In this document: in pieces, positions 22,761-55,546 of the stretch
How positions within the stretch are numbered: the first letter of the stretch is position 1
Layout: every line of letters starts with the position of its first letter
Assembly: GCA_019038645.1 (NCBI GenBank)
Contig: JAHOYT010000027.1
Coordinates: 1 to 55,562 of the forward strand
Length of the DNA stretch: 55,562 nucleotides
Direction of reading: 5' to 3'
From: Bacteroidales bacterium
GTDB lineage: Bacteria > Bacteroidota > Bacteroidia > Bacteroidales > UBA12077
Made by a program: the position numbers and the translations under genes
The notes under the pieces: generated by a model
What the model was told of the DNA's origin: nothing
Database searches by the model: none
What the model saw: the letters and a program-made list of their open reading frames with translations, nothing else

Positions 22761-22802
22761 TAATTGCTTTTAGTTTCTTAAATCAGTTAAAAAAGTAGAG
22801 TG

Positions 22803-25130
22803 ATGTTTAATTATTATATAAAATTAGTTTTTAGAAATTTATTGAAGAATAAGACCTTTTCTTTTATAAATATATTAGGATTAACAATTGGTTTAACGGC
22901 TAGTATGCTTATATATTTATGGGTTGCGGATGAACTGAGTTACGATAAGTTTCATAAAGATTACGATAATATCTACAGAATTTATTTTACTGAAACAAGT
23001 GAATCTCCATTAACAATAAGTAATCTTCCACCAGCATTAATTCCTGCTGTTCTTAATGAAATACCGGAAGTTGAAAAAGGATTCAGATATGATTCTTATA
23101 ACTCAACAATTAAATATTTTGATAAAATTTTTAAGGAAAAATTATTTTTTGTTGATCAGGGAATGTTTGATTTTATGGATTTTCCATTTGTAAAGGGATC
23201 ATCAGAAGCTGCTTTTGAGAATATAAATTCAATTGTATTAACTCAGAAATCAGCTTCTAAGTATTTTGGGACAGAAAATCCAATCGGAAAAGTTTTAACT
23301 ATTGATGGCGCTGATGATCATACTGTAACAGGAATAATACAGGATATACCTTCAAACTCAAGTATCCAACCTGATTTTATAATTCCAATAAATAGCCTTA
23401 ACCAGACAGGACATGAATTAGATAATTGGACCGAATGGGCCTGGCAAAGTTTTGTGAAGTTATCAGAAACGACAAATAAGAGTTCAGTTGAGAAAAAGAT
23501 AAATGAAATCTTAAAGAATAATATTGATAACGATAATAAAACTTTGTACTTGCAACCTGTTAAGAACATGCATTTGTATTTTTTAAACGGAGAACCTGCA
23601 CTTTTAAAAAGTATTTATATCTTCTCATTTATTGCCATAATTATTATCCTGATCGCATGTTTCAACTACATGAATTTATCTACTGCTAAATTAATATCAC
23701 GGGCAAAAAATACAGCTATTCAGAAAGTATTGGGTGCAGATAGAAAAAGAATCATTAAACAGTTGTTACTGGAATCTATGTTATTTTCCTTTCTATCATT
23801 AATCTTTGCTTTTATTTTAGTTGAGTTTTTTAGAACACCGTTTGGTAATTTAATCGAGAGAGACTTAACTATAAAATATACCGATCCTGTTTTTATCTTA
23901 ATAATAATTTCTGTAGCGATAGTAGCAGGATTATTTGCAGGTATTTATCCTGCAATAAAATTATCATCATTTAAGCCAATATTAGTACTTAGAGGATTTA
24001 GTAGTTTAAAATCAAATAAAAGTAATTTAAGGAAAGTATTGGTAATTGTGCAATTTGCAGTATCAGTAATATTAATTTCAAGTACTATAATAATTTCAAG
24101 GCAGATGAATTATACTCTGAATAAGGATCTTGGAATAGACCATGATAATATTGTTTATTTTCATGTAAATGATAAACTTCTGAACTCATACAATGTTTTC
24201 AAAGCAGATTTATTAGAATCTACTGACATAAAATCAATAACAAGAACATTCCAAATGCCATCATTCAATAAAATGTCAGTAGATGCAACCTGGGAAGGTT
24301 TACCAGAAGAATCAAATGTACGAATGAATATAAGCATTGGTGACTACGATTATCTTAAGGTTTTTGGTTTGAATTTAGTTGATGGTAGAGATTTTTCAGA
24401 GAACTTGTCAAGCGATTCAGTAAATACTATTATTAATGAGGAAGCTGTAAGGCAATTGCAGATGATTAATCCTGTTGGAACAAGCGCTACAATGTGGTAT
24501 GAAAGTGAAATTATAGGTGTGTTAAAAAACTATCATTTTATGCCATTGAATACTAAAATAGAGCCTATTGCAATTGTTATGGATAAAGGGTTTTATAAAA
24601 TTTGTGCTGTAAGGATTAATGGGAAGAATGTATCAAAGGCAATTCAATATATTGAAACTACTTTTAAGAAGTATGTTGATGATTTTCCGTTCGATTATCA
24701 TTTCATGAATGATGATTATGAAAGGATGTATAAATCTGAAATTCAATTAAAGGAATTGTATAAGTTCTTTTCATTTCTGGCTATTTTTATTGCTTGCTTA
24801 GGATTGTTTGGATTATCATCATTCATTGCTGAAAATAAAACAAAGGAAATTGCAATTCGAAAAGCTAATGGAGCTACAGTTAAAAGCATCGTTTTTCTAC
24901 TAAATAAAGAGTTTTTAAAATGGGTTTTTATTGCAATATTTATTGCTATACCTGTTGCTTATTTATGGATGGATAAGTGGTTGCAAAGCTTTATTTTTCA
25001 TATAGATATTGGGTTTTTTGAGTTTATTATTGCTGGAATTATTGCATTATTGATAGCATTCTCAACAATTGCTTTCCACGCTATACGAGCTGCAAATGCC
25101 AATCCGGTTGAAAGTTTACGTTACGAATAA
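22803..25130 (+). CDS. FtsX/MacB-type ABC transporter permease, array gene 1
   Basis: About 775 residues from the ATG at 22803 (a GTG at 22800 precedes it directly). The layout is that of the two-module permeases of Bacteroidota: a helix near 20-42, a periplasmic MacB-like domain, three helices at about 280-400, a second helix-plus-periplasmic-domain module, and a terminal FtsX block of three helices with NKTKEIAIRKANGA. It ends in NPVESLRYE. The protein has no ATPase domain. Related proteins act with a separate ATPase, often in export of peptides or in stress response; the substrate is unknown. Confidence 0.85.
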   Translation: MFNYYIKLVFRNLLKNKTFSFINILGLTIGLTASMLIYLWVADELSYDKFHKDYDNIYRIYFTETSESPLTISNLPPALIPAVLNEIPEVEKGFRYDSYNSTIKYFDKIFKEKLFFVDQGMFDFMDFPFVKGSSEAAFENINSIVLTQKSASKYFGTENPIGKVLTIDGADDHTVTGIIQDIPSNSSIQPDFIIPINSLNQTGHELDNWTEWAWQSFVKLSETTNKSSVEKKINEILKNNIDNDNKTLYLQPVKNMHLYFLNGEPALLKSIYIFSFIAIIIILIACFNYMNLSTAKLISRAKNTAIQKVLGADRKRIIKQLLLESMLFSFLSLIFAFILVEFFRTPFGNLIERDLTIKYTDPVFILIIISVAIVAGLFAGIYPAIKLSSFKPILVLRGFSSLKSNKSNLRKVLVIVQFAVSVILISSTIIISRQMNYTLNKDLGIDHDNIVYFHVNDKLLNSYNVFKADLLESTDIKSITRTFQMPSFNKMSVDATWEGLPEESNVRMNISIGDYDYLKVFGLNLVDGRDFSENLSSDSVNTIINEEAVRQLQMINPVGTSATMWYESEIIGVLKNYHFMPLNTKIEPIAIVMDKGFYKICAVRINGKNVSKAIQYIETTFKKYVDDFPFDYHFMNDDYERMYKSEIQLKELYKFFSFLAIFIACLGLFGLSSFIAENKTKEIAIRKANGATVKSIVFLLNKEFLKWVFIAIFIAIPVAYLWMDKWLQSFIFHIDIGFFEFIIAGIIALLIAFSTIAFHAIRAANANPVESLRYE

Positions 25131-25136
25131 AAAATT

Positions 25137-27479
25137 ATGATTATGATACGACATTTCTTTAGATTATTAATACAAAGAAATTTTAAGAGAAACGGCTTTC
25201 ATACACTGATTAACGTATTAGGACTTTCAATTGGTTTAACTTCTTTTATATTGTTTGTTCTATTCATTCAGAAAGTTAGAAATTATGATACTTTCCATGA
25301 CAACTATCAAAATTTATATAGAGTTATAAAAGAAACAAATGATAGTCGTGGCAATTTTGCTGGAACTCCAGCACAGTTAGGTGCTTATTTATCAGATAGA
25401 GTTCCTGAAATTGAGAATTATACAAGGATTGAAGAGGTTAAGAATATAACTGTAACAAAAGATCAGGAAAAATTCTTTGAATCGGATTTACTATATGTTG
25501 ATAATGAATTTTTTGAGATGTTTTCTTTTCCTATTGTACGAGGAAATGTTCAAAAACCAATTGAGAATATAAACTCGTTGGTAATAACAGAGAGTCTGGC
25601 ACAAAAGTATTTTGGTGATATGGATCCAATTGGACAAACTCTGAGGTTGGGACGAAAAGAAAAGGAATACCAAATAACAGCTGTTGTTCAAAACTGTCCT
25701 GAAAATTCGAGCATTAAATACGATTTAATAATATCCTTTGAGGTATTTGATAAAGATGCCTATTGGGGGCAGTTTAATTATTCTACTTATTTACTTATTA
25801 ATAATAACGAGAAAATTGCAGAAGAAAAGATAAAAACCTGTGCTGTTGATATTGGTGACAGAGTAATGGAGCTTAGCAATTTGAAATTACAAGCATTTAA
25901 GGATTTACGATTTGAAAAGATAAGAGGAAACTCTTTTAAAACAATTGACCGAAAGTACATTTATATATTCTTTTCTGCTACAATATTTATATTACTATTG
26001 GCTATAATTAATTACACAAACTTATCTTCGGCAGTATCACTTAAACGATCAAAAGAAGTAGCATTAAAAAAGATTTCAGGAAGTCAAAGAAAAAATATTA
26101 TTATCGAATTTCTTACTGAATCAATTTTGTTCTCAATAATAGCATTAATTGTTGCTTTAATATCAGTAGAACTTTTAAGCCCCGGTTTTGGAAATTTAAT
26201 TAATGAAGAAATTAATTTATCATATACTTTAATACCATACTTTCTTTTAATATCAATATTTGTAGGATTAGTTGCGGGAATATATCCATCAATTTATGGA
26301 TCACAATATAATATAATGTTATTGCTTAAAGAATCATTTTATAAGGGTAAAAAAGCTAAGAAATTCAGAAATTTATTAGTTGTGATACAATTTAGTATAA
26401 CTGGATTTTTATTTATTTCTGCTATAAGTTTTTCAAACCAGTTAGACTTTATGTTTAATAGAGAATTAGGTTTAAATACAGATAATGTGTATGAAATAGA
26501 GGTTCATTGGAGTGGAATAAAACTTAAGGAATTAAAAAACGAGTTAAAATCATTTACAGGTATAGAAAATGTATGCACAAGCACTTTTACAGCAGGTGAA
26601 GAAGGTTGGAACCAAACAGCAACATGGGAAGGAGTTGATGAGACAAACCAGATAAACATGTTTGTTCTTTTATCGGATAAGGATTTTATAAGTACGCTCG
26701 GAATTAAATTCATAGAGAAATTGGATGATTATGAAAATATTTCATTGGATAATGGTGATTTCTTTATTATAAATAAATCAGCAAAAGATCATATTGGTTG
26801 GGATAATTCAATCAATAGATTTTTTACTGTTTTTTCAGATACTACAGGAAAAGTTGTTGGGGTTGTTGATGATTTTAATTTTCGATCATTACATTACAAA
26901 TCAAGTCCAAGTACTATTAGAGTAAGAGAAAAACCAGTAGCTGATAAAATGCATGTTAAAATTAAATCAGGATATGAGGTCGAAGTAATTAATTTAATTG
27001 AACAAAAATGGAAAGAATTTGCTCCGATTAATGCTCCATTAATTATAACCAGTCTGACAAAGGAATTTGAAAATCTTTATAGTACCGAGAAAAAAACAAA
27101 AAAGATCGTAATCTTATTTACAATTATTGCTACAGTTATTTCAGTTTTAGGCTTAATTGGTCTCGCAACTTATATTACATTGCAGAGAACAAAAGAAATT
27201 GGTATTCGTAAAGTTTTAGGTTCAAATACAACTAAAATAATAGTAATGTTGGTTGGCGATTTTATAAAGTGGGTATTAATATCCTTTGTTATTGCAGCTC
27301 CAATTGCATATTTATATATTAATAAATGGTTGCAAAACTATGCTTATCAGTCAAATATAACTGTGTGGGTTTTTGTTTTAGCAGGTTTTCTTACAATAGC
27401 TGTAGCATTTATTAGTGTTTTTATTTTAGCATTTAGAGCAGCAAAGAGAAATCCGGTTGATAGTTTACGTTACGAATAA
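25137..27479 (+). CDS. FtsX/MacB-type ABC transporter permease, array gene 2
   Basis: 780 residues, same two-module layout as its neighbours, with RTKEIGIRKVLGSNTTKI in the last FtsX block and a NPVDSLRYE end. It starts 6 bases after the preceding stop, so it is in the same operon. Periplasmic parts differ clearly from gene 1 (for example NDSRGNFAGTPAQL at about 65), meaning these are old paralogues rather than a recent duplication. Confidence 0.85.
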   Translation: MIMIRHFFRLLIQRNFKRNGFHTLINVLGLSIGLTSFILFVLFIQKVRNYDTFHDNYQNLYRVIKETNDSRGNFAGTPAQLGAYLSDRVPEIENYTRIEEVKNITVTKDQEKFFESDLLYVDNEFFEMFSFPIVRGNVQKPIENINSLVITESLAQKYFGDMDPIGQTLRLGRKEKEYQITAVVQNCPENSSIKYDLIISFEVFDKDAYWGQFNYSTYLLINNNEKIAEEKIKTCAVDIGDRVMELSNLKLQAFKDLRFEKIRGNSFKTIDRKYIYIFFSATIFILLLAIINYTNLSSAVSLKRSKEVALKKISGSQRKNIIIEFLTESILFSIIALIVALISVELLSPGFGNLINEEINLSYTLIPYFLLISIFVGLVAGIYPSIYGSQYNIMLLLKESFYKGKKAKKFRNLLVVIQFSITGFLFISAISFSNQLDFMFNRELGLNTDNVYEIEVHWSGIKLKELKNELKSFTGIENVCTSTFTAGEEGWNQTATWEGVDETNQINMFVLLSDKDFISTLGIKFIEKLDDYENISLDNGDFFIINKSAKDHIGWDNSINRFFTVFSDTTGKVVGVVDDFNFRSLHYKSSPSTIRVREKPVADKMHVKIKSGYEVEVINLIEQKWKEFAPINAPLIITSLTKEFENLYSTEKKTKKIVILFTIIATVISVLGLIGLATYITLQRTKEIGIRKVLGSNTTKIIVMLVGDFIKWVLISFVIAAPIAYLYINKWLQNYAYQSNITVWVFVLAGFLTIAVAFISVFILAFRAAKRNPVDSLRYE

Positions 27480-27490
27480 AAAATAAAACT

Positions 27491-29830
27491 ATGTTCAAAT
27501 ATCTATTAAAATCAGCGTTTAGAAATATCCTTAATAACAGAATATACTCATTTCTTAATTTTTCAGGATTATCAATTGGAATAGCTTCCTTTCTCTTGCT
27601 TTTTCTTTGGATAAAAGATGAGGTAAATTACAATAAGTTTAATGCAAATTATAATGAAATTTATCGTTTGTATTCTGAGTATCAGGAAAAAGACAATGTT
27701 TGGCAAACGCAGTTAACGCCCGATATGGCTGCACCTTTACTTGTCGGGCAATATCCGGGTATTAAAAATGCGGTTCGATTAAAAAACCAGGCATCAACAA
27801 TTAAGGTTGGAGAAGATTTGTTTAATGAAGAAAATTTGTTTTACACAGATCCTTCATTTTTTGAGATTTTTACTTCTGAAGTCGTTTACGGAGATCCGCA
27901 TATTGCCTTAAGTGATCCGAATTCAGTTGTACTTACATCTCATATTGCTAAAAAATATTTTGGCAATAAGAATCCAATTAATAAAACTATTCTTGTTGAT
28001 GGTATACATGAGTTCAATGTGGCAGCAGTTGTCAGGAATTTTCCAAATAATACGGATGTAAATTTTGATTTGTTACTTCCTTATAAATTTTTAGAAGATA
28101 ATAATTTAATGTGGAGATATTGGTCGTTTGGAAGAATTGAGACTTATATATTAGCCGGGAAAGGAAAACTAAAGAAACAATTAGATTTTGAAATTAAAGA
28201 TTTTATGTCTGATAAAGGACCAGATTTAGGTTTTGTTTTTAAGGTTCAGCCTTTAAGACAGTTACATTTATACTCGCTGGACGGAGAAAAAGCAGGAATG
28301 AAAACAGTGCAAATTTTCGCATTAATAGCATTATGTATTTTAGTTATTGCTTGTTTTAATTTTATAAATCTTACAACAGCTCAATATACAAAAAGGTCAA
28401 AAGAAATTTCTTTAAAACAAATATTAGGTAGTAGCAAGTTAGGCCTTGTTAAAAATATATTTTTTGAAACAGGATTATTCGTTTTAATTTCAGGTGTATT
28501 TGCTTTAATATTCATTGAGTTATTCCGAATGCCTTTCAATAAAATTTCAGGAAAGGAGCTTACAATTAATTATTTAGATTTGTCCTTTATTGGATATCTA
28601 TTTTTAATATTTTTCATTACAAGTATAATATCGGCTTTATATCCAGCCTATTTTATTACAAAGTTTAAGTCTTTAAATCTTTTAACCGGTGAGCTAACAA
28701 AAGGCTTGCGTGGAAAAAGAATTCGAAAGCTTATTGTTATATTTCAATTTACCATATCTATTATTCTTGTAATATCATCTATCACAATATTTAGGCAATT
28801 TGATTATCTGAAAAATAAAGATCTTGGTTATAATACAAGTAATATAGTCTATCTTCCATTAAAAGGAGTTGCCAGAAATAATTACGGACTTATAAAACAG
28901 CAAATTAAGAATAGTCCATTTATTGAAAATGTTTCAGTTGTTTCTGAACTACCCAATTTTGTTGGTATTGGTACAAGTAATTATAATTACGAAGGAAAAG
29001 ATCCGGCTGACGATAAAGGTTTTACAATTTTATCGGTAGACCATGATTTTTTAGAAACCATTGATTTAGAATTGTCGCAAGGAAAAGATTTTTCATTGGA
29101 TTTTAATTCAGATTCTTCAAATTATATTCTTAACGAAAAGGCAATTCAATATATGGGTTTAGAAAACCCGGTGGGAAGTAAATTTAGCATGTTTGATATT
29201 GAAGGAGAAATAATTGGTGTTGTGAAAGATTTTCATTTTAAGCCATTAAATGAGCCTGTTGAACCAATATTTTTAGCAATTGTACCGAATTACTACTCAT
29301 ACTTTATGATAAAATTAAATGATAAAAGTATTCCAAACGGAATTAATCATATCGAAAAAGTGTGGAATGAATTCTTACATGATTATGCTTTCGAATATGA
29401 TTTTTGGGATGATCATAAAACAAGTATTTACAGATCTGAAAAAAGAATGATTAACATCTTTTTGTATTTTACTTTACTGGCAATATTAATTGCTGCGATT
29501 GGATTAGTTGGTCTTTCAATGTTTACTACCGAAATTAAAACAAAGGAAATAGGAGTCAAGAAAGTAAACGGAGCAAATACATTAAGTATTATTAAAATGT
29601 TTATTAAGGATTATTCAATATGGATTTTAGTTTCAATTATAATTGCTTGCCCAATTGCATATTATGTAATGGATAAGTGGTTACAAGATTATGCTTATAG
29701 AATCGATTTATCTATATGGATTTTTATAATAAGTGTTGTATTTGTATATGTAATTGGAATACTATCAATAATTGTTCAGTCGTATAAAGCTGCTAAGGCA
29801 AAACCTGTTGAGAGTTTACGTTACGAATAG
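27491..29830 (+). CDS. FtsX/MacB-type ABC transporter permease, array gene 3
   Basis: 779 residues with the same membrane plan, GLSIGIASFLLLFLWIKDE in the first helix region and IKTKEIGVKKVNGANTLSI in the terminal FtsX block. The C-terminus is KPVESLRYE. It begins 11 bases after gene 2 and should share its transcript. A 151-base gap separates it from gene 4, so a break or additional promoter is possible there. Confidence 0.85.
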   Translation: MFKYLLKSAFRNILNNRIYSFLNFSGLSIGIASFLLLFLWIKDEVNYNKFNANYNEIYRLYSEYQEKDNVWQTQLTPDMAAPLLVGQYPGIKNAVRLKNQASTIKVGEDLFNEENLFYTDPSFFEIFTSEVVYGDPHIALSDPNSVVLTSHIAKKYFGNKNPINKTILVDGIHEFNVAAVVRNFPNNTDVNFDLLLPYKFLEDNNLMWRYWSFGRIETYILAGKGKLKKQLDFEIKDFMSDKGPDLGFVFKVQPLRQLHLYSLDGEKAGMKTVQIFALIALCILVIACFNFINLTTAQYTKRSKEISLKQILGSSKLGLVKNIFFETGLFVLISGVFALIFIELFRMPFNKISGKELTINYLDLSFIGYLFLIFFITSIISALYPAYFITKFKSLNLLTGELTKGLRGKRIRKLIVIFQFTISIILVISSITIFRQFDYLKNKDLGYNTSNIVYLPLKGVARNNYGLIKQQIKNSPFIENVSVVSELPNFVGIGTSNYNYEGKDPADDKGFTILSVDHDFLETIDLELSQGKDFSLDFNSDSSNYILNEKAIQYMGLENPVGSKFSMFDIEGEIIGVVKDFHFKPLNEPVEPIFLAIVPNYYSYFMIKLNDKSIPNGINHIEKVWNEFLHDYAFEYDFWDDHKTSIYRSEKRMINIFLYFTLLAILIAAIGLVGLSMFTTEIKTKEIGVKKVNGANTLSIIKMFIKDYSIWILVSIIIACPIAYYVMDKWLQDYAYRIDLSIWIFIISVVFVYVIGILSIIVQSYKAAKAKPVESLRYE

Positions 29831-29981
29831 ATTGGGTGTTCATTTTTTAGTTTAAATGTTGGATTTTGCAACAGTTGATTTTTAATTGTAAATTGTAAGA
29901 TGTTGATTGTTAGTATTTAAAAATTTTGGTATATGGTTTGGCATAAATAATTGTCAACAAAAATTAACAAACTTTACAATT

Positions 29982-32402
29982 ATGATTAAGAACTTTTTCA
30001 AAATAGCATTACGAAATTTATGGCGTAATAAATTAAATACATTCGTAAATATTCTTGGTTTATCAGTTGGTATAGCCAGTTGTATTCTGATTTCATTGCA
30101 TGTAATGGACGAATATTCATACGATAAGTTTTTTGAGAATTCTGATAACATATATCGAGTAGCTTTAAATCGTATTTATCCTGAAAATACTATAAGCTAT
30201 GCTATTATTCCTCATTCTTATGGTCCAACTATTAAAGAAGATTTTCCGGAAGTAGAAGCCCAAATGAGAATTTCTCGTTTCAATAACGAATTAGTATTTC
30301 GTTATGAAGAAAATGTTTTTAAGGAAAATAATTTTTGTTTTGCCGATTCTACTTTTTTCGATTTCTTTTCAATAAAGCTATTAATTGGCGATCCGAAAAC
30401 AGTTCTAGCTGATCCAACATCAATTGTGATGACAGAAAGTACTGCAAAAAGATACTTTGGAAGCGATGATCCTTTGGGCAAGATGATTACAACGCCCTTT
30501 GGAGAAATTAAAGTTTCCGGAGTATGTGAGGATGTTCCGGAGAATTCACATATGGATTTTGATTTCTTAGGTTCTTTATTTGTAAATCAGTTTATAAGAG
30601 CAGTAAATTATGTTTCTTTTTCCACACATACTTATATTAAATTAGCAGCAGGAACAAACCCTACAACTGTTCAGGCAAAATTGCCGGATTTAGTTAAAAG
30701 ATATGCAGCTGGTCAGATTGAATCGCAAATGGGCGTAACTTTTGAGGAATATACAAAAGCTGGCAATGGATACGATTATTTTTTACAACCATTAACAAGT
30801 ATTCATTTGCATTCCAATCTCGAAGCTGAAATGAATCCGAATGGGGATTACAGATATGTTATTATATTTATTTCAATAGCAATATTTATTTTAGTGCTTG
30901 CATGTATAAATTTTATAAACCTGTCAACAGCACAAGCTGCAGAACGCGCAAAAGAAGTTGGTATCAGAAAGGTAGTAGGTAGCAATAAAAAATTTCTTGT
31001 AAGGCAGTTTTTGTTTGAATCAATCTTTGTTAGTTTTTTTAGTTTGTGGATAGGCTTAATTTTGATTGAATTATCTCTTCCAATTTTTAATAATCTTGCT
31101 CAAAAGTCACTTTATATAGATTATTTTGGGAATCCTTATGTTCTGCCGTCATTATTCTGTGTAAGCATATTTGTAGGGATAATTGCAGGTATATATCCAT
31201 CTTTCTTTTTATCTTCATATAAACCTGTTGAGGTGCTAAAAGGAAAATTTGGGTCTTCAAAACGAGGTCGGATTTTACGATATTCTTTAGTGATTTTTCA
31301 GTTTACTATCTCCATTGGATTAATAGCATTTACTTTATTAGTGAATAGCCAAATTCGGTATATAATGAATAAAAATCTTGGATTTGATAAAGAAAAAGTT
31401 GTGGTAGTAGATAGAATTTTTTCATTACGGGAAAATATGCAAATATTTATTGACGAGGTTAAAAAAATGCCTGAGGTTAAAAATGTATCCTTATCCGGTT
31501 CTGAGATTCAGGGAGGTTTTTATTTTGGAGTAATGCTCCAAAAAGATGCAAATTCAGAAATCTTGACAACAAGAGGGATGATTGTTGACGATTTCTTTGT
31601 TAAAACAATGGGATTAGAAATAGCAGACGGAAGAGATTTTTCAGATCAGTTTGATGATTCCTTAAAAGTACTGGTTAATGAGGCTTTTGTTAAAGAGTTT
31701 GATTTTAAGGAACCTGTAGGAGCACGATTCAGGTTCAGATTTAATAATGAGGATCCTTTCGATGAATATACAATAGTTGGAGTGGTTAAAAATTATCACT
31801 ATAATTCTCTTCATCAACCGATACAGTCATTTATTATGTTTAATAATGAAGAAAGAGGAGGAGCGGCTGGTCAATTAAATGTAAAATTAACAAAGGGGAA
31901 TATTACATCTACTATACAAGAAATTGAAAACAAATGGAATGAATTTAGTAATGAGTCTCTGTTCTCGTATTACTTTCTGGATGAGCATTTAGGTCAGATG
32001 TACACCATGGAAAAAACATCGATGCGAATTTTTAGCATATTTTCTTTACTGGCAATTATTATTGCATGCATTGGATTATTAGGTCTGGCATCATACATGG
32101 CTATACAACGTACAAAAGAAGTGGGTATAAGAAAAGCTATGGGAGCATCTGTTTCAAATATTATATTGTTACTATCATATGATTTTACTAAATGGGTTGT
32201 ATTTGCGAATATAATTGCTTGGCCATTAGCTTATTTATTAATGAATAATTGGCTTAAAAACTTTGCATACAGAACAAATATTGGAATATGGATTTTTATT
32301 GTTTCAGGTGGTTTATCAATATTGATAGCATTAGTTACAATAATTTTTATGGCATATAAAGCAGCATCCAGAAACCCGGTTAATAGTTTACGTTACGAAT
32401 AA
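29982..32402 (+). CDS. FtsX/MacB-type ABC transporter permease, array gene 4
   Basis: 806 residues from the ATG at 29982. The frame is open further back to 29907, but all paralogues begin at the MIKNFFKIALRN-like segment just before the first helix. The terminal FtsX block has QRTKEVGIRKAMGASVSNI and the protein ends in NPVNSLRYE. It is the longest of the four because of a larger second periplasmic domain. No ATPase gene follows; the next gene is on the other strand. Confidence 0.85.
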   Translation: MIKNFFKIALRNLWRNKLNTFVNILGLSVGIASCILISLHVMDEYSYDKFFENSDNIYRVALNRIYPENTISYAIIPHSYGPTIKEDFPEVEAQMRISRFNNELVFRYEENVFKENNFCFADSTFFDFFSIKLLIGDPKTVLADPTSIVMTESTAKRYFGSDDPLGKMITTPFGEIKVSGVCEDVPENSHMDFDFLGSLFVNQFIRAVNYVSFSTHTYIKLAAGTNPTTVQAKLPDLVKRYAAGQIESQMGVTFEEYTKAGNGYDYFLQPLTSIHLHSNLEAEMNPNGDYRYVIIFISIAIFILVLACINFINLSTAQAAERAKEVGIRKVVGSNKKFLVRQFLFESIFVSFFSLWIGLILIELSLPIFNNLAQKSLYIDYFGNPYVLPSLFCVSIFVGIIAGIYPSFFLSSYKPVEVLKGKFGSSKRGRILRYSLVIFQFTISIGLIAFTLLVNSQIRYIMNKNLGFDKEKVVVVDRIFSLRENMQIFIDEVKKMPEVKNVSLSGSEIQGGFYFGVMLQKDANSEILTTRGMIVDDFFVKTMGLEIADGRDFSDQFDDSLKVLVNEAFVKEFDFKEPVGARFRFRFNNEDPFDEYTIVGVVKNYHYNSLHQPIQSFIMFNNEERGGAAGQLNVKLTKGNITSTIQEIENKWNEFSNESLFSYYFLDEHLGQMYTMEKTSMRIFSIFSLLAIIIACIGLLGLASYMAIQRTKEVGIRKAMGASVSNIILLLSYDFTKWVVFANIIAWPLAYLLMNNWLKNFAYRTNIGIWIFIVSGGLSILIALVTIIFMAYKAASRNPVNSLRYE

Positions 32403-34765: not shown

Positions 34766-34834
34766 TCAATATGACAATCAACAATCAATCAATTTGACCC
34801 GTCCTAAATAATGGCTACACAAATTGTAGCAATT

Positions 34835-35200
34835 ATGTATAAAAATGACAAAGTAACAAGACGTTACAGTGAGAGTTTTAAACTCAAAATTTTATCGGAA
34901 CTTAGTACGGGTAAATATACCAAAAGAGAATTAGGTCGTATTTATGGAATCCATAATAGTTCTATCAATGAGTGGGTTCTTAAATACGATAGAAAAGACT
35001 TAATGAATACTAGAGTTATCGTGAAAACAAAAGATGAAATTAGTAGATTAAAAGCCTTAGAAAAAGAGGTAGAACAGCTAAAGAACTTACTGGTAAGGAA
35101 AGATATGGAGAAACTGGTAAGCGACTCTTATCTTGAAGTAGCTGCAAAGAATTTAGGTTATAAAAGTGTTGAAGAGCTAAAAAAAAACTTAAACATTTAG
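34835..35200 (+). CDS. IS3-family transposase OrfA
   Basis: 121 residues from the ATG at 34835; an in-frame ATG at 34811 lies inside the terminal inverted repeat. The N-terminal helix-turn-helix (SFKLKILSELSTGKYTKRELGRIYGIHNSSINEWVLKY) binds the element ends. A leucine-rich coiled coil follows (ISRLKALEKEVEQLKNLLVRKD), used for multimerisation. The frame crosses the A9 slippage site just before its stop at 35198-35200. Confidence 0.85.
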   Translation: MYKNDKVTRRYSESFKLKILSELSTGKYTKRELGRIYGIHNSSINEWVLKYDRKDLMNTRVIVKTKDEISRLKALEKEVEQLKNLLVRKDMEKLVSDSYLEVAAKNLGYKSVEELKKNLNI

Positions 35201-35205
35201 CTCTT

Positions 35206-36063
35206 ATGAAAGCAGTAGATATAACAAGAAAAATAGGTGGATCTAACATTGAAACTACCTGTAATTGCTTTGATGTGCACAGAGATGCATACTATAAGTA
35301 CCTAAAGCGATATAAGAAGCGTAAAGCTGTTGAAGTGAAAGTAATAGATCTCGTAAAAGTAGAACGTATAATACAACCACGAGTGGGAACAAGAAAACTG
35401 TACAAGGCTTTAAAATCAACATTTAAAGCAACAGGAATAAAGCTTGGTAGAGATTGTTTGTTTGACATTCTTCGTTCTCATGATATGCTTGTAAAACGAA
35501 AGAAAGCAACATGCAAAACTACAGATTCTTATCATCGTTTTCATAAGTATAACAACCTTGTGAAAGATATGAATGTTACAGCGCCCAATCAGGTTTGGGT
35601 CTCTGACATTACATATATTAGAACTGTTAATGGTTTTTGCTATTTAGCGCTGATTACAGACATGTTCTCTCGAAAAATAGTAGGATATGACATCAGCGAT
35701 TCTCTGGAGCTGACGGGCTGTCTTCGAGCCTTAAAACGAGCTCTGAGGACAGCCCGTCCAGCGGTCGGCTTAGTACATCACTCTGACAGAGGTATTCAGT
35801 ATTGTAGTAATCAATATGTAAGTGAATTAAAGAAACATAAAATCAAAATTAGCATGACTGAAGAAAATCATTGTTATGAAAATGCAATAGCTGAAAGAGT
35901 TAACGGCATTTTAAAAGATGAATTTTATCTTGACCAATGCTTCTTTAATACACGGAACGCTTGCAAAGCAGCAAAAAATGCAATAGATATTTACAATAAT
36001 AAAAGATTACACTTATCTTTAGCATATAAAACACCAAATATGGTATTTAATAAAGCAGCGTAA
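35206..36063 (+). CDS. IS3-family transposase OrfB (DDE integrase core)
   Basis: 285 residues in the -1 frame relative to OrfA; the frame is open back to 35173, so a slip on the A9 run would give an OrfAB fusion transposase. The rve/DDE core shows the catalytic residues in VSDITYI, HHSDRGIQY and ENAIAERVNG, with KDEFYLD and YNNKRLHLSL after them. All catalytic residues are present and the reading frame is unbroken. Confidence 0.9.
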   Translation: MKAVDITRKIGGSNIETTCNCFDVHRDAYYKYLKRYKKRKAVEVKVIDLVKVERIIQPRVGTRKLYKALKSTFKATGIKLGRDCLFDILRSHDMLVKRKKATCKTTDSYHRFHKYNNLVKDMNVTAPNQVWVSDITYIRTVNGFCYLALITDMFSRKIVGYDISDSLELTGCLRALKRALRTARPAVGLVHHSDRGIQYCSNQYVSELKKHKIKISMTEENHCYENAIAERVNGILKDEFYLDQCFFNTRNACKAAKNAIDIYNNKRLHLSLAYKTPNMVFNKAA

Positions 36064-47303: not shown

Positions 47304-47498
47304 GTGATACTAAATAAATTTACCAGGAAGCATATTATTTTCGGGCATATTATTTTCTGGTTTATAATTCTGTTCATTAATTTTTCTTTCGATATTTTTT
47401 ATCCCTCGGAATATCCGGTAAGTTATTATTACTGGAAAGTTACAAATAATGCGTCCTTTTCAGATTATATAAGTTGCTTCTTATTTTTTTCAGTGTAA
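47304..47498 (+). pseudogene. N-terminal remnant of a membrane sensor (LytS-like) protein
   Basis: A 64-codon frame from a GTG encodes KHIIFGHIIFWFIILFINFS and a further hydrophobic stretch, then SYYYWKVTNN, as in the first membrane helices of LytS-type kinases from Bacteroidota. The frame ends at FFSV with no kinase domain after it on any frame of the following 290 bases. I read it as a truncated leftover; a real 64-residue membrane peptide cannot be excluded. Confidence 0.35.
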
Positions 47499-48953: not shown

Positions 48954-49013
48954 TTATAAACACTTTAGTAAGACAATCTTACCAAAAAGTTTATAATCCA
49001 ACCCTATTTTGCC
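48954..49013. repeat. Structured hairpin repeat, copy 1 (left of RiPP locus)
   Basis: Outer stem TTATAAAC / GTTTATAA, internal loop ACT and AAA, inner stem TTAGTAAG / CTTACCAA with one mismatch, and a 5-base loop. The stem ends at 48996 and is followed by CCAACCCTATTTTGCC (48998-49013). Copy 2 at 55464-55546 has the same architecture and the same trailing sequence. Confidence 0.7.
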
Positions 49014-49889: not shown

Positions 49890-52205
49890 ATGATAAAATT
49901 ATATTTCACTTTGCTTTATCGAAGAGTAACAGAAAAGTTTTCGCTGTTTTTTTTGAATTTCATTGGGTATGTAATATTATTATCAGTAATTAGTTTAACA
50001 ACTTTGTTTATTTATGGTGAATTAACCTATGATGATTTTAAAAAGAAAGATAGAATTTATAGAATGGTTAATTCAATTACTGCTGGGTCGAAACCTGCTT
50101 TTACTTTAAATTCTTCAATAACAATGCCTGAAGATCTAAAGGGAAAATATCCTGAAGTAGAATCTTTTGTTAATATGTCTCTTATTCGAGATATGAACAT
50201 AACAAGTGTCGAAAAGCAATTAGCCCAAAATGTTATATTTTTTGAAGGAGATTTCTTGAATACATTTACTCCTGATTTTATTTATGGAAATATTACTTAT
50301 TTTAATCGAGCTGGTAACACATGTTTTATTTCTAAATCTTTTTCAGAATATTTATTTGGAAAGAGTAATTCTTTAGGAGAAAGTCTGGTTCTTGCTAACA
50401 AGAGTGATACAATGCAAGTAAGTGTGGCAGGAGTAATTAATGATTTTCAAAATACAACTTTCATGCAAGGGGATATTTTTGTTAAGAGTGAAGTTGGATT
50501 TGATTTTTATGATACTTATTCGGACTTGACGTTTTTATTATTAAAAGAAAATGGCAAAATTGATAAATTAAATAATATACAAGCCGAGGAATATGAGTTC
50601 AATGGGATTAAATATAAGAAAAGCTTCTTTTTTCAACCCTTAAAGGAAGTGTATTTAAAATCAGGATTCTTAAATTTTAATTATTATCCTTCAGGGAACT
50701 TAAAATTATTAATTGTATTTATTGTTGCTTTATTGTTAATGCTTTTGTGTATTATATTTAATTATAACTTTATGTTTATAGTTTTAATAAGGGCAAGAGT
50801 AAAGGAGTTCAGTTTAAAAAGAATATTTGGTTTAGATAAAAAGAGTGTATTGTATGGGATTATATCTGATAGTGCTTTGTTTGTATTTATTGCTGCATGT
50901 TTTGCATATTTAATTAGTAAAAAGGCAATTTATTCTATAGAAAGCTTGAATATTGTCCTTAAAAATTATTCCCAGTGGTTTGATGGAGTTTTTGTGATTG
51001 TTTTCTCTGTTATCATCATCATCACAATTGTTATACCTTTATTGTATTATAAATCAATAATAAAAATAAAACGTTTAGATAGATTAGAATATAGTAATGA
51101 AGCAAAAAAGAATAAAGTGTTTGGAAATGTATTTCTTGGCGTGCAAGTTATTGTTGCATTTGTTTTATTCGCGTTTTCATTTACTGTAAAATCACAATTG
51201 CAATACGCTATTAATAGGGATTTGGGAATAAAGAATCGAGATTTAATCATTATAAGTAATGATTTGTCAGAACAAGATTATAATGTGTTTTCAGAAGAAT
51301 TAAAAAAGACGTCAATGATATCTGGTGTAACCAGAATTGGCAAATTACCTCCATCAAATTTCCCTCAAAGAATGATGCGAATTAAATGTATAGGAGATAA
51401 GGAGAAGGATGTTATAACGGCTATCTTGCTTGTAGATCAAAATACTTTAGAAACTCTTGGTATAACATATGTGCAGGGAGAAGGTTTTCAAAATTACAGT
51501 AATTATAAATCATGTTGTGTTGTAAGTGAATCGTTAGCAGACCAATTAGGTGTTGATAATATAATTGGTTATGAAGTGACACCTGGGATAAGAATTATTG
51601 GTGTTGTTGAAGATATTAGCATGGTTTCTGTCCGAAAGGATAATTTTCCTCTTGTGATACAGTGTGATCCAGAATTTTGTAAAGAAATAGTAGTTAACAC
51701 AATAACAGAGGATGTAGCAATTGTCGAAATTGTTTCTACAGTTTATGAGTCCATTCATGGAAAAAGTCCTCAATTGACATTTTATAAAGAGCATCTTAAA
51801 TCCTTATATATAGAGGAAGATTTCATGTTAAAGTATGTTGTAACTTTTTCAACTATTACATTGGGATTGGTCTTTTTGGGATTTTATTTCTATGCAAGAT
51901 CAATTGTTGATTTAAGATCAAGAGATATTGTTATAAGGAAAATTCATGGGGCATCAATTCAAAGTATTATAAAATTATTAATGAAGGAGTATTTACTGGT
52001 TTCAATTGGTTCAATTATAATTGCATGTTTGCTATTTTCATACATATCTAATATGTGGTTATCGGGGTTTACATTTCATATTGATAAAAGTTTAAAACAC
52101 TATGTATATCCGGCTATTTTAATGGTTTCAATCTTAATAATTGCTGTCCTAAATAGTGTTTTAAGATTGGCTCATAAAAATATTGTTGCAACAATAAACA
52201 ATTAG
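49890..52205 (+). CDS. Diverged FtsX/MacB-type permease of the RiPP locus
   Basis: 771 residues with the two-module plan of the array permeases: a first helix near 18-42, a periplasmic domain, helices near 270-390, a second module from about 415, and a terminal FtsX block with SRDIVIRKIHGASIQSI. It lacks the SLRYE end of the other four (it ends HKNIVATINN), and its periplasmic domains are clearly different. It lies 28 bases ahead of the precursor gene and so probably shares the transcript. It may export the product or protect the cell from it; no ATPase gene is in view. Confidence 0.8.
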   Translation: MIKLYFTLLYRRVTEKFSLFFLNFIGYVILLSVISLTTLFIYGELTYDDFKKKDRIYRMVNSITAGSKPAFTLNSSITMPEDLKGKYPEVESFVNMSLIRDMNITSVEKQLAQNVIFFEGDFLNTFTPDFIYGNITYFNRAGNTCFISKSFSEYLFGKSNSLGESLVLANKSDTMQVSVAGVINDFQNTTFMQGDIFVKSEVGFDFYDTYSDLTFLLLKENGKIDKLNNIQAEEYEFNGIKYKKSFFFQPLKEVYLKSGFLNFNYYPSGNLKLLIVFIVALLLMLLCIIFNYNFMFIVLIRARVKEFSLKRIFGLDKKSVLYGIISDSALFVFIAACFAYLISKKAIYSIESLNIVLKNYSQWFDGVFVIVFSVIIIITIVIPLLYYKSIIKIKRLDRLEYSNEAKKNKVFGNVFLGVQVIVAFVLFAFSFTVKSQLQYAINRDLGIKNRDLIIISNDLSEQDYNVFSEELKKTSMISGVTRIGKLPPSNFPQRMMRIKCIGDKEKDVITAILLVDQNTLETLGITYVQGEGFQNYSNYKSCCVVSESLADQLGVDNIIGYEVTPGIRIIGVVEDISMVSVRKDNFPLVIQCDPEFCKEIVVNTITEDVAIVEIVSTVYESIHGKSPQLTFYKEHLKSLYIEEDFMLKYVVTFSTITLGLVFLGFYFYARSIVDLRSRDIVIRKIHGASIQSIIKLLMKEYLLVSIGSIIIACLLFSYISNMWLSGFTFHIDKSLKHYVYPAILMVSILIIAVLNSVLRLAHKNIVATINN

Positions 52206-52233: not shown

Positions 52234-52398
52234 ATGAAAAAGAAATTAAAATTAACAAATGAGAATGTGAGATTCTTAGACAATAGAACTCTACAAACGA
52301 TAAGAGGAGGGACGGAATGCACTCGGTACTGTGTTCTGGGAGACGACTACTATAATGGGGCGAATCCAACTAATGAGGTTACTGTTACCCCCTCTTAA
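52234..52398 (+). CDS. RiPP precursor peptide, GG-Bacteroidales type
   Basis: A 54-residue peptide. The leader (1-26) begins KKKLKLTNENVRFLD and ends TIRGG, with Gly25-Gly26 as the cleavage site; this is the form of the GG-Bacteroidales precursor family as I know it. The core (27-54) is 28 residues with Cys29 and Cys33, Tyr32, the segment GDDYYNGANP at 36-45 and several Thr residues near the end. The ATG at 52234 follows an A-rich stretch. It lies between the permease (28-base gap) and the radical SAM gene. The identification rests on leader form and gene context, which agree strongly. Confidence 0.8.
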   Translation: MKKKLKLTNENVRFLDNRTLQTIRGGTECTRYCVLGDDYYNGANPTNEVTVTPS

Positions 52399-52519
52399 TT
52401 AAAAAAGTGTTGCCAATACAATACTATTTTAAGAGTACTACACCGTTGGAGGTAGATACTTATAGTGTTGTAGTTGTAAAAGTATTTACAATCTGGCATA
52501 AGCTATGAATTGAGATATT

Positions 52520-52555
52520 TATTGGAGTGTGAGATGTTCACACTCCAATATTTTA
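52520..52555 (+). terminator. Hairpin between precursor and maturase genes
   Basis: A perfect 13-bp stem, TATTGGAGTGTGA with TCACACTCCAATA (52520-52532 and 52538-52550), around GATGT, followed by TTTT. The T-run is short, so it may be a partial terminator that keeps the precursor transcript abundant relative to the enzymes, or a stability element for its 3' end. It is 30 bases before the maturase start. Confidence 0.7.
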
Positions 52556-52580
52556 ATGCAGATTAAATAATTGATATTAA

Positions 52581-54056
52581 ATGAGTAAGCGTGGGTGGTA
52601 TACTTTCAAAAGTAAAAGTGGTCATTCCTATTTATATAGTAATACGAAAAAGAGCTTTATTTTTATTTCTGATAAGCTCGATGAGTTATTAGTACTATTA
52701 AAAAATGGGAGTGATTTTTCGGAGTTTTTAAATGAAAAAAGTAAAAACAAAGATTCTGATTATGAAGATTGGCTTCATTATTATAATTTGCTTATCCTGT
52801 TGAGAGAGAATAGATATTTTGATGATTACGACAGGAACCATTTTATTGATGATAGATTAACAATTCAAGATTATAATATAGATAACTGTAAATCATTATG
52901 TTTTGAAGTAACACAAAACTGTAATTTAAGTTGTACATATTGCGCTTATGGAGATTTATATGAGAACAAAAGAGTAAGTGATACAAAGGTGCTTCAATTT
53001 GAAACGGCTAAGTTAATGATTGATTATGCAAAAGAAAATTTTGGGAATAAGTTTGTTATAACAATTGGGTTTTATGGTGGAGAACCCTTATTAAATTTTC
53101 AGTTGATAAGAAGAATAGTAGATTATGCAAAAAATCAACTTGAGAAGATTGATTTTCAAATGACTACAAACGGTGTTCTATTAGATAGATATATGGACTA
53201 TATTGCTGAAAATAAATTTAAACTTGCAATCAGTCTCGATGGTGATGTTAATAATAATATTTATAGGGTAGATAATGAAGGGGGTGAGACTTTTGAGAGA
53301 GTTGCCAACAATATAGAACTTTTAAAAAACAAATGGACGGAGTATTTTAGAGGTTATGTGCGAATTTTATCTTTAATTAATTTTACAAGTAATATTAAAG
53401 AAATTTTAAAGTTCTTTAATGATAAATTTCAGATTGTTCCATACTTTTCCTTCTTATCTCCAATAGATGTTAACAAGTCAAAATTAGATGAATATTATAA
53501 AATGTCTAAAGATTACTATAAGTTCTTTGGAGAGCGCTCCATTCAAAAATCTTCAAGCAACAAATCGCAACAGACACATCCATCTGAAGTAGATCTTTTC
53601 GAGACTTTGAGAACTTATAGTGGGAATTTTTATGAAAATCATTCAGAAATATTTCTAAAAACTAAATGCTTAAGGCTTATAACAGGGACTTGCAAGCCAT
53701 TTGAAAAGCTTTTTATAACGACAAATGGAAAGATTCTTCCATGTGAACGTATAGATCAGAAATTCTTTTTTGGCGAGATAATAAATGGAAAAGTAATTAT
53801 GAAACCGCATCATGTAATTGAGCAGTTTAATAGTTACATTGATAAAGTTAGTTCATCGTGCAAGAGTTGTTATATAATTGAAAAATGTACCCTTTGTCTA
53901 TTTCATTGTGGCTTTAATGATGAAAAAGTAGTTTGTAGAAATATCAGAGATAAAGAGGAATTTATATCAATGTTATCAAATAATATTAGTTATCTAGAGG
54001 AATATCCAGAATTATATAATTTAATGTCAAAAAAAGATTATGATATTGTTAAATAA
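52581..54056 (+). CDS. Radical SAM/SPASM peptide maturase
   Basis: 491 residues. The N-terminal 105 residues resemble a peptide-recognition region that precedes the radical SAM core. The core has the iron-sulfur motif Cys114-x3-Cys118-x2-Cys121 (CNLSCTYC), then FYGGEPLLNF, MTTNGVLLD and LAISLDGD, all typical. The C-terminal SPASM region (from about 370) has many cysteines in TNGKILPCERID, CKSCYIIEKCTLC and CGF, enough for auxiliary clusters. Enzymes of this type modify the core of a neighbouring Gly-Gly precursor, for example by forming thioether or carbon-carbon links. The chemistry here is unknown. The gene overlaps its partner by 17 bases. Confidence 0.88.
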   Translation: MSKRGWYTFKSKSGHSYLYSNTKKSFIFISDKLDELLVLLKNGSDFSEFLNEKSKNKDSDYEDWLHYYNLLILLRENRYFDDYDRNHFIDDRLTIQDYNIDNCKSLCFEVTQNCNLSCTYCAYGDLYENKRVSDTKVLQFETAKLMIDYAKENFGNKFVITIGFYGGEPLLNFQLIRRIVDYAKNQLEKIDFQMTTNGVLLDRYMDYIAENKFKLAISLDGDVNNNIYRVDNEGGETFERVANNIELLKNKWTEYFRGYVRILSLINFTSNIKEILKFFNDKFQIVPYFSFLSPIDVNKSKLDEYYKMSKDYYKFFGERSIQKSSSNKSQQTHPSEVDLFETLRTYSGNFYENHSEIFLKTKCLRLITGTCKPFEKLFITTNGKILPCERIDQKFFFGEIINGKVIMKPHHVIEQFNSYIDKVSSSCKSCYIIEKCTLCLFHCGFNDEKVVCRNIRDKEEFISMLSNNISYLEEYPELYNLMSKKDYDIVK

Positions 54057-55272
54057 AACATTTTTTACAATTTACCCATTTACATATTACTGTTTAAAAG
54101 GAGATACGTTGTTTTTATATAATACTTTAAATGGAGAGAGGTTTATAAAAAGTAATTGTGATAAAAATATTTTAGATATTATAACTAAACTATATAATAC
54201 AAATAATATTGGAATGGTTGAGGTTAATCCTGAAAAATTTAATGAAAGTGCTTTGTGTTTTTTCAAAGAAATAAAAGAAAAGTTGTTTGGGGATATTATT
54301 CATTCTATTAATGGAGAATTTAATCCAGTACAAATACCTAAACGAATACATCTTTCTGGGAATCGTTTTTCAGAGGAGATTCTTTTCCCTGATAAGTCTA
54401 AGGGATTTACTCAAATTAAGGAGCTGCATTTTTTTATTATGTCAAAATACAAATTTGTTCCTGGAAATAATTCTTTATATAGACAGTTTCTAACAAATTG
54501 TAATTTTAAGGATTGTAACCAGGATTTAAAATTTGAAAAATTCAGGGACTTGGTGGAAGAGCTTATGAGCTATGAACTTTCAATAGTAACCTTGTATTGT
54601 GATGATATTTTTCTATATAGAGAATATGAGAAACTATTTGCTTTTCTAAATAATTTAAATATTAAGATAGAGTTGGTTTTTAGTTATGAATATTATGTGG
54701 AAAAATATTCTCAAATAAAAAAATCTATATTAAATCCTAATATAAGAATTATATTACATCATTATAATTTAAAGGAACTAGAAAAAGATTTTTGTACTGA
54801 AGTTGGTTTGAATTGTTTTTTTGTAGAAAGTGAACAACAATTTAATCTTGTGGAAGAAAATATTAGTGAAATAGGTATAGATAATTATCATATCGCAGGT
54901 ATTTATAATGGGAATAACGATTCCTTTTTTGAATCAGCTGTTTTTATTGAACTTGAAGATATTTTTGAAGAAAAAATAGATTTTCAATCTATTTTAGTAA
55001 ATTCAGAGATGAACAGAAATGATTTTGGGAAATTGATAATTCTTAGTAATGGTAATGTTTTTGCTAATATAAATAATGCTTTAATAGGTAATTATTATAC
55101 AGAAAGTTTAGATAAGATTCTTGAAGAAGAACTAAAAAATGGTTCGTCTTGGGGTAATGTAAGGCAACGTGTTGCCCCTTGTAGTGAATGTGTTTATAAT
55201 TGTTTGTGTCCCCCTATTTCAAATTATGAATATGTATTAGGAAAGTTTAATCTTTGCAAAATTTTTAAATAA
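54040..55272 (+). CDS. Pseudo-radical-SAM partner of the RiPP maturase
   Basis: 410 residues. The chain follows a TIM-barrel-like strand pattern (IHLSGNRF, ELHFFIM, LSIVTLYCDD, IKIELVFSYEYY, IRIILHHYNL) but has no CxxxCxxC motif, so it cannot make the radical cluster. The C-terminus keeps a SPASM-like segment, APCSECVYNCLCPPISNYEYVLGKFNLCKI, the hallmark I associate with pseudo-rSAM proteins of GG-Bacteroidales loci. Its start lies inside the maturase gene, so production is coupled. A role in substrate binding or as a subunit of the maturase is inferred. Confidence 0.82.
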   Translation: MILLNKTFFTIYPFTYYCLKGDTLFLYNTLNGERFIKSNCDKNILDIITKLYNTNNIGMVEVNPEKFNESALCFFKEIKEKLFGDIIHSINGEFNPVQIPKRIHLSGNRFSEEILFPDKSKGFTQIKELHFFIMSKYKFVPGNNSLYRQFLTNCNFKDCNQDLKFEKFRDLVEELMSYELSIVTLYCDDIFLYREYEKLFAFLNNLNIKIELVFSYEYYVEKYSQIKKSILNPNIRIILHHYNLKELEKDFCTEVGLNCFFVESEQQFNLVEENISEIGIDNYHIAGIYNGNNDSFFESAVFIELEDIFEEKIDFQSILVNSEMNRNDFGKLIILSNGNVFANINNALIGNYYTESLDKILEEELKNGSSWGNVRQRVAPCSECVYNCLCPPISNYEYVLGKFNLCKIFK

Positions 55273-55463: not shown

Positions 55464-55546
55464 TTACAAACACATTGGTAAGCCTGCGCTAACACAACAC
55501 ACAGCCAAAGGCTTACCAAAAAGTTTGTAACCAACCCAATTTTGCC
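55464..55546. repeat. Structured hairpin repeat, copy 2 (right of RiPP locus)
   Basis: Outer stem TTACAAAC / GTTTGTAA (55464-55471 and 55523-55530), internal loop ACA and AAA, perfect 10-bp inner stem TTGGTAAGCC / GGCTTACCAA, and a 25-base loop. CCAACCCAATTTTGCC follows at 55531-55546. Relative to copy 1, the outer stem has a paired C-to-T and G-to-A change that keeps pairing intact. Confidence 0.7.

Follow-up and report, generated by a model that had tools for sequence, protein, structure and literature searches.

A divergent GG-Bacteroidales-type peptide modification locus with a degenerate radical SAM partner in a Bacteroidales draft genome

Near one end of a Bacteroidales contig, we found a trio of genes for a ribosomally synthesized and post-translationally modified peptide (RiPP): a 54-residue peptide with a Gly-Gly (GG) leader, a radical S-adenosylmethionine (SAM)/SPASM gene, and an overlapping gene for a partner protein known as a pseudo-radical SAM protein (pseudo-rSAM). 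The stretch that we analyzed, hereafter the window, is one entire contig (G000:C19) of 55,562 bases from a draft genome (G000) of 3.39 Mb in 102 contigs. Judged by sequence, the locus adds a divergent new member to the already catalogued GG-Bacteroidales RiPP system (TIGR04148/TIGR04149/TIGR04150). We make this call because both enzymes pass the curated family cut-offs and because the precursor ranks first in a search of the window with a leader profile from its relatives; the same results support the GG-Bacteroidales-type assignment made in a first-pass annotation, which had described this trio. The kind of gene set is thus already catalogued, and its product appears uncharacterized. What is new here is the full-length degenerate partner, a Cys pattern that runs through the partner family, a symmetric core motif, and an exporter on another contig. 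The features of the locus are as follows.

52234 to 52398, + strand: RiPP precursor, 54 residues; leader MKKKLKLTNENVRFLDNRTLQTIRGG, ending in IRGG; core TECTRYCVLGDDYYNGANPTNEVTVTPS, with two Cys
52399 to 52580, + strand: structured intergenic stretch (hairpins, fold z-score)
52581 to 54056, + strand: radical SAM/SPASM peptide maturase, 491 residues, above the TIGR04148 cut-off
54040 to 55272, + strand: pseudo-rSAM partner, 410 residues, above the TIGR04150 cut-off
49890 to 52205, + strand: MacB/FtsX-type permease (PF12704 and PF02687)

Against the curated NCBIfam models, the maturase scored 338.9 bits with TIGR04148 (cut-off 300) and the partner 261.5 bits with TIGR04150 (cut-off 250); their open reading frames (ORFs) overlap by 17 bp in different frames. 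The precursor reached 16.8 bits (E = 0.0045) with TIGR04149, below the cut-off of 25, and the peptide itself is therefore not filed as TIGR04149. The profile check suggested in the first-pass annotation was thus borne out for the two enzymes but not for the precursor. Two precursors from the same genus do exceed the TIGR04149 cut-off (locus L040, 30.2 bits; L037, 29.3 bits), and passages of PMC8939145 use this family as a precursor model. Because a 26-residue leader gives a weak signal, we combined 25 leaders from other trio loci into a profile, excluding the window, the leaders of L105 that end in Ala-Gly, and the truncated leader of L039. Among the 1005 ORFs of the window (six-frame, stop-to-stop, at least 25 residues), the precursor came first with this profile (E = 0.0031; runner-up, 0.76), and none of 5000 shuffled precursors scored as high. 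The GG-leader peptide next to the maturase therefore resembles the leaders of the other trio loci.

The best model overall, to which we assign a probability of roughly 60%, is a thioether maturase with a non-catalytic partner acting on a GG-leader precursor, in a RiPP cluster of the GG-Bacteroidales type. Under this model, the ribosome would make the 54-residue precursor, whose leader would bind the maturase pair as a heteromer. The maturase (52581 to 54056) would cleave SAM and cross-link the two core Cys (CTRYC) through thioethers to residues later in the core, so that the peptide folds into a small nested hairpin; thioethers to C-alpha, or to C-beta or C-gamma, of an acceptor would make it a sactipeptide or a ranthipeptide. 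The partner (54040 to 55272), which would itself carry out no radical SAM chemistry, may help to hold the leader or the maturase and may keep one auxiliary Fe-S site. Cleavage of the modified peptide on the C-terminal side of Gly-Gly, and its export, would then fall to a C39-peptidase ABC transporter whose gene lies on a different contig.

The maturase has the features of an intact radical SAM enzyme: CX3CX2C at residues 114 to 121, GGEP satisfying the GGE pattern, and seven SPASM Cys (371, 388, 427, 430, 436, 439, and 452), all invariant in the 19 aligned sequences. It scored 68.4 bits with PF04055, above the cut-off, and 16.5 with the Pfam SPASM model, under the cut-off of 21.5. After TIGR04148, its next NCBIfam matches were CcpM, the lachnocin maturase, PapB, and RumMC. 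The closest solved relative in the PDB by sequence profile was CteB (5wgg, E = 1.6e-34), which also came first when the AlphaFold2 model was used in a fold search (5wgg, E = 4.8e-19), followed by anSME, ChlB, and TigE. The comparison favors a Cys-thioether maturase, because the nearest families and the closest relatives in sequence and predicted fold are Cys-peptide maturases. CteB has a layout of RiPP recognition element (RRE), radical SAM domain, and SPASM domain, which the window maturase may share; it differs in that its SCIFF precursors belong to another family and in that it is not known to work with a pseudo-rSAM partner. The window maturase has 113 residues ahead of CX3CX2C. This motif could be placed in 32 of 36 maturases, the remaining four being cut off, and in 9 of the 32 it lies only 25 to 33 residues from the start, so that these nine are missing the N-terminal domain. 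We also noted a 1664-residue ORF (L093:1068-6062) with a maturase-family match near its start, which extends far beyond the match and is possibly a fusion.

The partner had been described in the first-pass annotation as keeping only a SPASM-like tail. The SPASM half is there, but so are an N-terminal domain and a degenerate radical SAM barrel. Its C-terminal CX2CX5CX15C (Cys 381, 384, 390, and 406), which we read as one putative SPASM half, is invariant at all four positions in the 22 aligned partners, and in the N-terminal domain Y27 and N28 are conserved in at least 90% of the same alignment. The barrel assignment draws on three comparisons: the partner-family profile matches radical SAM folds in the PDB (best E = 5.7e-4); hhalign places the CX3CX2C/GGD region of the family on the CX3CX2C/GGEP region of the maturase (pairwise E = 0.0011, with a probability of only 20%); and the top Foldseek matches of the AlphaFold2 model are SuiB (5v1t, 7.7e-8) and CteB (5why, 1.8e-7), with SkfB also among the best.

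Across the family, the barrel Cys are nearly all present or all absent. We collected 40 partner sequences and dropped five under 390 residues, leaving 35 of full length. CX3CX2C is kept in 19 of these, each of which has a fourth Cys at CX9C. In 14 of the 16 without the triad, all four positions lack Cys (for L039, L045, and L084 this is partly or wholly owing to gaps there), and the other two have a single Cys (L036 and L040). The window partner has no Cys at any of the four, so it lacks the CX3CX2C of a radical SAM enzyme; in the tree it sits on a long branch (1.57) without well-supported neighbors. Six changes of the trait are required by the best tree, and branches with good support account for two of them at the least. 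Since it changes repeatedly and relatives also lack these Cys, the partner gene stays beside the maturase even where the site for a barrel cluster is gone. The name "pseudo" fits the window partner, but by this pattern it may not fit half of the family. Passages of PMC10352776 leave the pseudo-rSAMs of such clusters without an assigned function as of 2023.

The fourth Cys may bear on what the partner does. As we read it, a Cys at CX9C would fill the iron that needs to stay open for SAM, and one may ask whether CX3CX2CX9C instead holds a fully Cys-ligated electron-relay cluster. Partners would then have a redox function across much of the family, and window-like members would have passed it on, either to a different protein or to their C-terminal cluster. 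The single spacing of the fourth Cys in all 19 CX3CX2C partners and the invariance of the four C-terminal Cys speak for such a job. Set against it, 14 of the 16 triad-free partners lack Cys at all four positions and yet adjoin maturases of the same family. We regard this redox role as possible but somewhat doubtful, and prefer the model of a non-catalytic partner for the window.

To look at the substrates, we recognized precursors by eye and by pattern, giving 31 peptides from 26 loci with the window included. At L036, L041, L045, L046, L085, L091, L094, L095, L097, L098, L099, L102, and L106, no precursor was recognized or the locus was cut off; a candidate at L045 was excluded from the counts, and L101, L103, and L104, which duplicate L036, L037, and L044, were counted once. 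Every one of the 31 cores has at least one Cys. CxCxC occurs in 21 precursors and C-x3-C in 26, and 13 cores carry C-x3-C-x5-GG-x5-N-x3-N exactly, 12 of them with the middle Cys; the middle position is Tyr in one copy from L105 and Arg in the window core. In 2000 trials, shuffles of the same composition gave at most one motif-bearing peptide per set. This control excludes composition only, and because the motif was derived from the very set of related sequences in which it was counted, the count is a description and not an independent test. A side observation is that L105 (2880-6344, from an Aminicenantes metagenome-assembled genome, or MAG) has four precursor copies whose leaders end in Ala-Gly instead of Gly-Gly.

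The motif spacing is mirror-symmetric about the GG, pairing positions 1 with 22 and 5 with 18, and this symmetry hints at a nested hairpin of the kind that most sactipeptides form. According to passages of PMC8326336, the known sactipeptides, with two exceptions, are hairpins with the donor Cys on the N-terminal side and the acceptors on the C-terminal side. The window core, TECTRYCVLGDDYYNGANPTNEVTVTPS, keeps the outer two Cys (C29 and C33, in CTRYC) and N-x-A-N in a shorter register, and on that account the acceptor residues cannot be named.

The same cores bear on whether the chemistry is a thioether at all. In the same cluster, the maturase might instead carry out another radical reaction, such as a C-C cross-link, an epimerization, a cyclopropane, or a backbone change, with the core Cys forming only disulfides or binding metal. 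Its fold matches do include enzymes that are not known to make thioethers (anSME, TigE, and EpeE), Tyr, Asn, and Asp abound in the window core, and C-x3-C is lacking in 5 of the 31 cores. The best family, sequence, and fold matches, however, are thioether maturases, and the Cys found in each core points the same way. We consider another reaction unlikely, and a little less likely than the redox role of the partner.

The maturase and the partner have a shared history. At 30 loci, a single full-length maturase gene and a single full-length partner gene were available, and a Mantel test on the pairwise distances of the two proteins across these loci gave r = 0.80 (0 of 9999 permutations as high). 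The strands and helices in the moderate structural models fit a winged-helix RRE for the N-terminal domain of the maturase and less so for that of the partner, and the top Foldseek matches of both models are enzymes that presumably contain an RRE.

Several points weigh against the model of a thioether maturase with a leader-binding, non-catalytic partner. The repertoire of radical SAM enzymes extends to C-C bonds, epimers, and further modifications. The correlation of 0.80 reflects shared history and not contact, because co-inherited neighbors correlate anyway. In the search for an RRE by sequence, the N-terminal sub-alignments of the maturase (14 rows) and the partner (15 rows) did not match each other (hhalign E = 0.27), and profiles of the two domains had no RiPP enzyme among their PDB matches; with these tests failed, the putative leader-binding role of the partner is read from its predicted fold. 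Mean pLDDT is moderate (partner, 72.7; maturase, 70.8), and the loops and SPASM parts are weakest. In addition to the low TIGR04149 score of the precursor, the window core does not fit the 22-residue motif, having a spacing of 3 and not 4 in N-x-A-N. No C39 peptidase was found on the window contig, leaving the exporter unlinked, and the permease on the precursor side is of a common kind, with 33 further matches in the genome.

The question of the exporter also qualifies how complete the locus is. The first-pass annotation had called it complete, which is right for the three-gene core but does not extend to export, as the contig lacks a C39 exporter and stops 290 bp downstream of the partner gene. 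The single C39-peptidase match in the genome is a 733-residue exporter at G000:C4:104921, followed by an HlyD-type gene. Its block is collinear with an exporter block in a second genome, G016 (a contig also recorded as Bacteroidetes bacterium MAG82, L103), and the two exporters are 89% identical over 733 residues. There, the order is three LytTR genes, precursor, maturase, partner, and exporter. On C4, two LytTR genes are followed 82 bp on by the exporter, and the third LytTR gene and the trio of G016 are missing. In G012, another genome of the genus, the trio likewise precedes an exporter of this kind, and two other genes stand between them. Since the sole C39 exporter lies on C4 in a block collinear with the trio-bearing block of G016, we infer that export is most likely supplied in trans, from the other contig; a second, unseen exporter beyond the contig end is possible. 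Beside the exporter blocks of C4 (L048:7224-7388) and G016 (L103:2905-3075), we observed a second GG-leader peptide, 46% identical between the two, with an Asp-rich core, a WPP motif, no Cys, and no NCBIfam match.

This arrangement could also mean that the locus is a decaying remnant, with a diverged core, an unlinked exporter, and a partner without a barrel cluster. The low-scoring precursor, the contig without a C39 exporter, and the C4 block, in which just 82 bp separate the second LytTR gene from the exporter at the place of the third LytTR gene and trio of G016, might point that way; we find such decay improbable given three intact ORFs, retained catalytic and SPASM Cys, and a strongly structured spacer.

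That spacer corrects a further detail of the first-pass annotation, in which the precursor stood directly before the maturase: the two are adjacent in order, but 182 bp with strong hairpins lie between them. The spacer folds at -53.5 kcal/mol (z = -6.03), and none of 200 shuffles was as stable. Its last hairpin (52520 to 52550) is a 14-pair terminator-like stem followed by TTTTAATGCA. The terminator pattern occurs once in the region with 1.4 expected in shuffles, so the count alone is not significant, while the fold z-score does stand out. Its likely role is to allow production of more precursor than enzyme, as would be expected in a system that needs the peptide in large surplus.

In the samples searched, the family is nearly confined to the order. 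Among 393 genomes of the order, TIGR04150 was above its cut-off in 23 (27 with E up to 1e-20) and TIGR04148 in 21 (25 with E up to 1e-40), and the carriers are scattered across many families. In a sample of 59 relatives, nine genomes had TIGR04148 above the cut-off, patchily within the genus of the window. The class sample gave matches in 2 of 395 genomes, the window's own and one of its order, and the phylum sample in 1 of 395, again the window's own; the two samples thus add no full-length partner. Querying genome contigs with just the window maturase brought up no relative. The corresponding search with an alignment of four partners returned nine loci: four in MAGs labelled Acidobacteria/Acidobacteriota or Aminicenantes, one in Cytophagales, one in a Bacteroides sp., and three on Bacteroidetes/Bacteroidales contigs that repeat loci already taken. 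The Acidobacteriota, Aminicenantes, and Cytophagales matches are all on contigs of MAGs. In the tree, the Acidobacteriota/Aminicenantes partners, four in number, group together with good support (99/98), which argues against chance misbinning, though misbinning may still play a part. Because the partner scan reaches MAGs outside the order, the name GG-Bacteroidales is nearly, perhaps not wholly, right.

Several described systems can be set beside this locus. With the GG-Bacteroidales system, it shares the maturase and pseudo-rSAM families beside a GG-leader peptide, and it differs in the precursor score and in the missing middle Cys of CxCxC. In the passages of PMC4573289 that describe it, in silico, a Bacteroides uniformis ATCC 8492 cluster contains all three families and has an exporter gene, whereas the window trio is without an adjacent one. 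The Bacteroidales clusters BGC3 to BGC5 likewise combine an rSAM, a pseudo-rSAM, and a GG-leader precursor, and as described in passages of PMC10352776, neither BGC3 nor BGC5 has a C39 exporter linked to it; the three clusters differ from the window in having LanC-like genes, of which we found none among the window genes scanned. By analogy, TrnC and TrnD of thuricin CD may offer a parallel for two proteins of the radical SAM fold acting as a pair: passages of PMC12093266 report that one Trn protein can lose its radical SAM Cys with the product still made. Unlike the window partner, each of the two Trn proteins is a genuine radical SAM enzyme, and the parallel drawn here lies in the pairing.

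The first-pass annotation had also held that few if any products of such loci are characterized, and the literature does not contradict this. Searches limited to the open-licensed PubMed Central (PMC) literature brought up no characterized product, so that one may have been published elsewhere. Passages of the three papers found to name the families (PMC4573289, PMC8939145, and PMC10352776) treat them in silico, and those of PMC9576775 and PMC12806405 hold no product of such a locus. PMC9576775 also reports that a large screen lacking Fe-S helper genes yielded no modified peptide for the RiPP classes defined by radical SAM enzymes.

Upstream, the stop of the permease lies 28 bp before the precursor, and the gene is possibly an accessory one, for immunity or efflux. 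Its best matches among the ORFs of the window and the trio loci are in L040 (206.8 bits) and L089 (201.0), with L036 at 169.4; the best paralogue in its own genome scores 172.1. As two trio-locus permeases beat the genome's own paralogues and the third, from L036, does not, we dropped the idea that the permease is firmly tied to the cluster. No ABC ATPase was found in the two upstream neighbors scanned. In L036, a thioredoxin/AhpC-type gene (2338-2832) lies between the partner gene and the permease.

Elsewhere in the window, four tandem MacB/FtsX permeases occupy 22800 to 32402. A transposase pair at 34811 to 36063 combines HTH_Tnp_1 with an integrase core domain, presumably as in IS3-type elements. 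A short cut-off ORF at 47304 to 47498 resembles, by eye, the beginning of a sensor kinase of the membrane-bound type and is perhaps a remnant. An imperfect direct repeat of 26 nt (85%; 48978 to 49003 and 55512 to 55537) brackets the block of permease and trio, and an inverted repeat at the end of the contig overlaps with the second of its copies. We rejected a mobile element flanked by direct repeats: the end sequence matches only itself and one partial copy in the genome, and two further weak matches at 3 mismatches equal the number given by a reversed control.

Taken together, the partner and core patterns permit a bolder joint proposal, which as a whole we think quite unlikely. In it, the pseudo-rSAM family would represent half-way decay of an enzyme, with a four-Cys relay cluster kept or lost nearly all-or-none and a window lineage that retains only a leader-binding scaffold, and the pair would make a new class of nested, mirror-symmetric Cys-Asn thioether hairpins (C1 to N22 and C5 to N18 round a GG turn), of which the window form is shortened. 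The recurrent symmetric core motif provides a concrete structure to seek by tandem mass spectrometry (MS/MS). Moreover, the partners form a natural series, with four barrel Cys or none beside one maturase family, which makes the role of the partner testable. If true, the proposal would show a catalytic enzyme becoming a non-catalytic partner in peptide modification.

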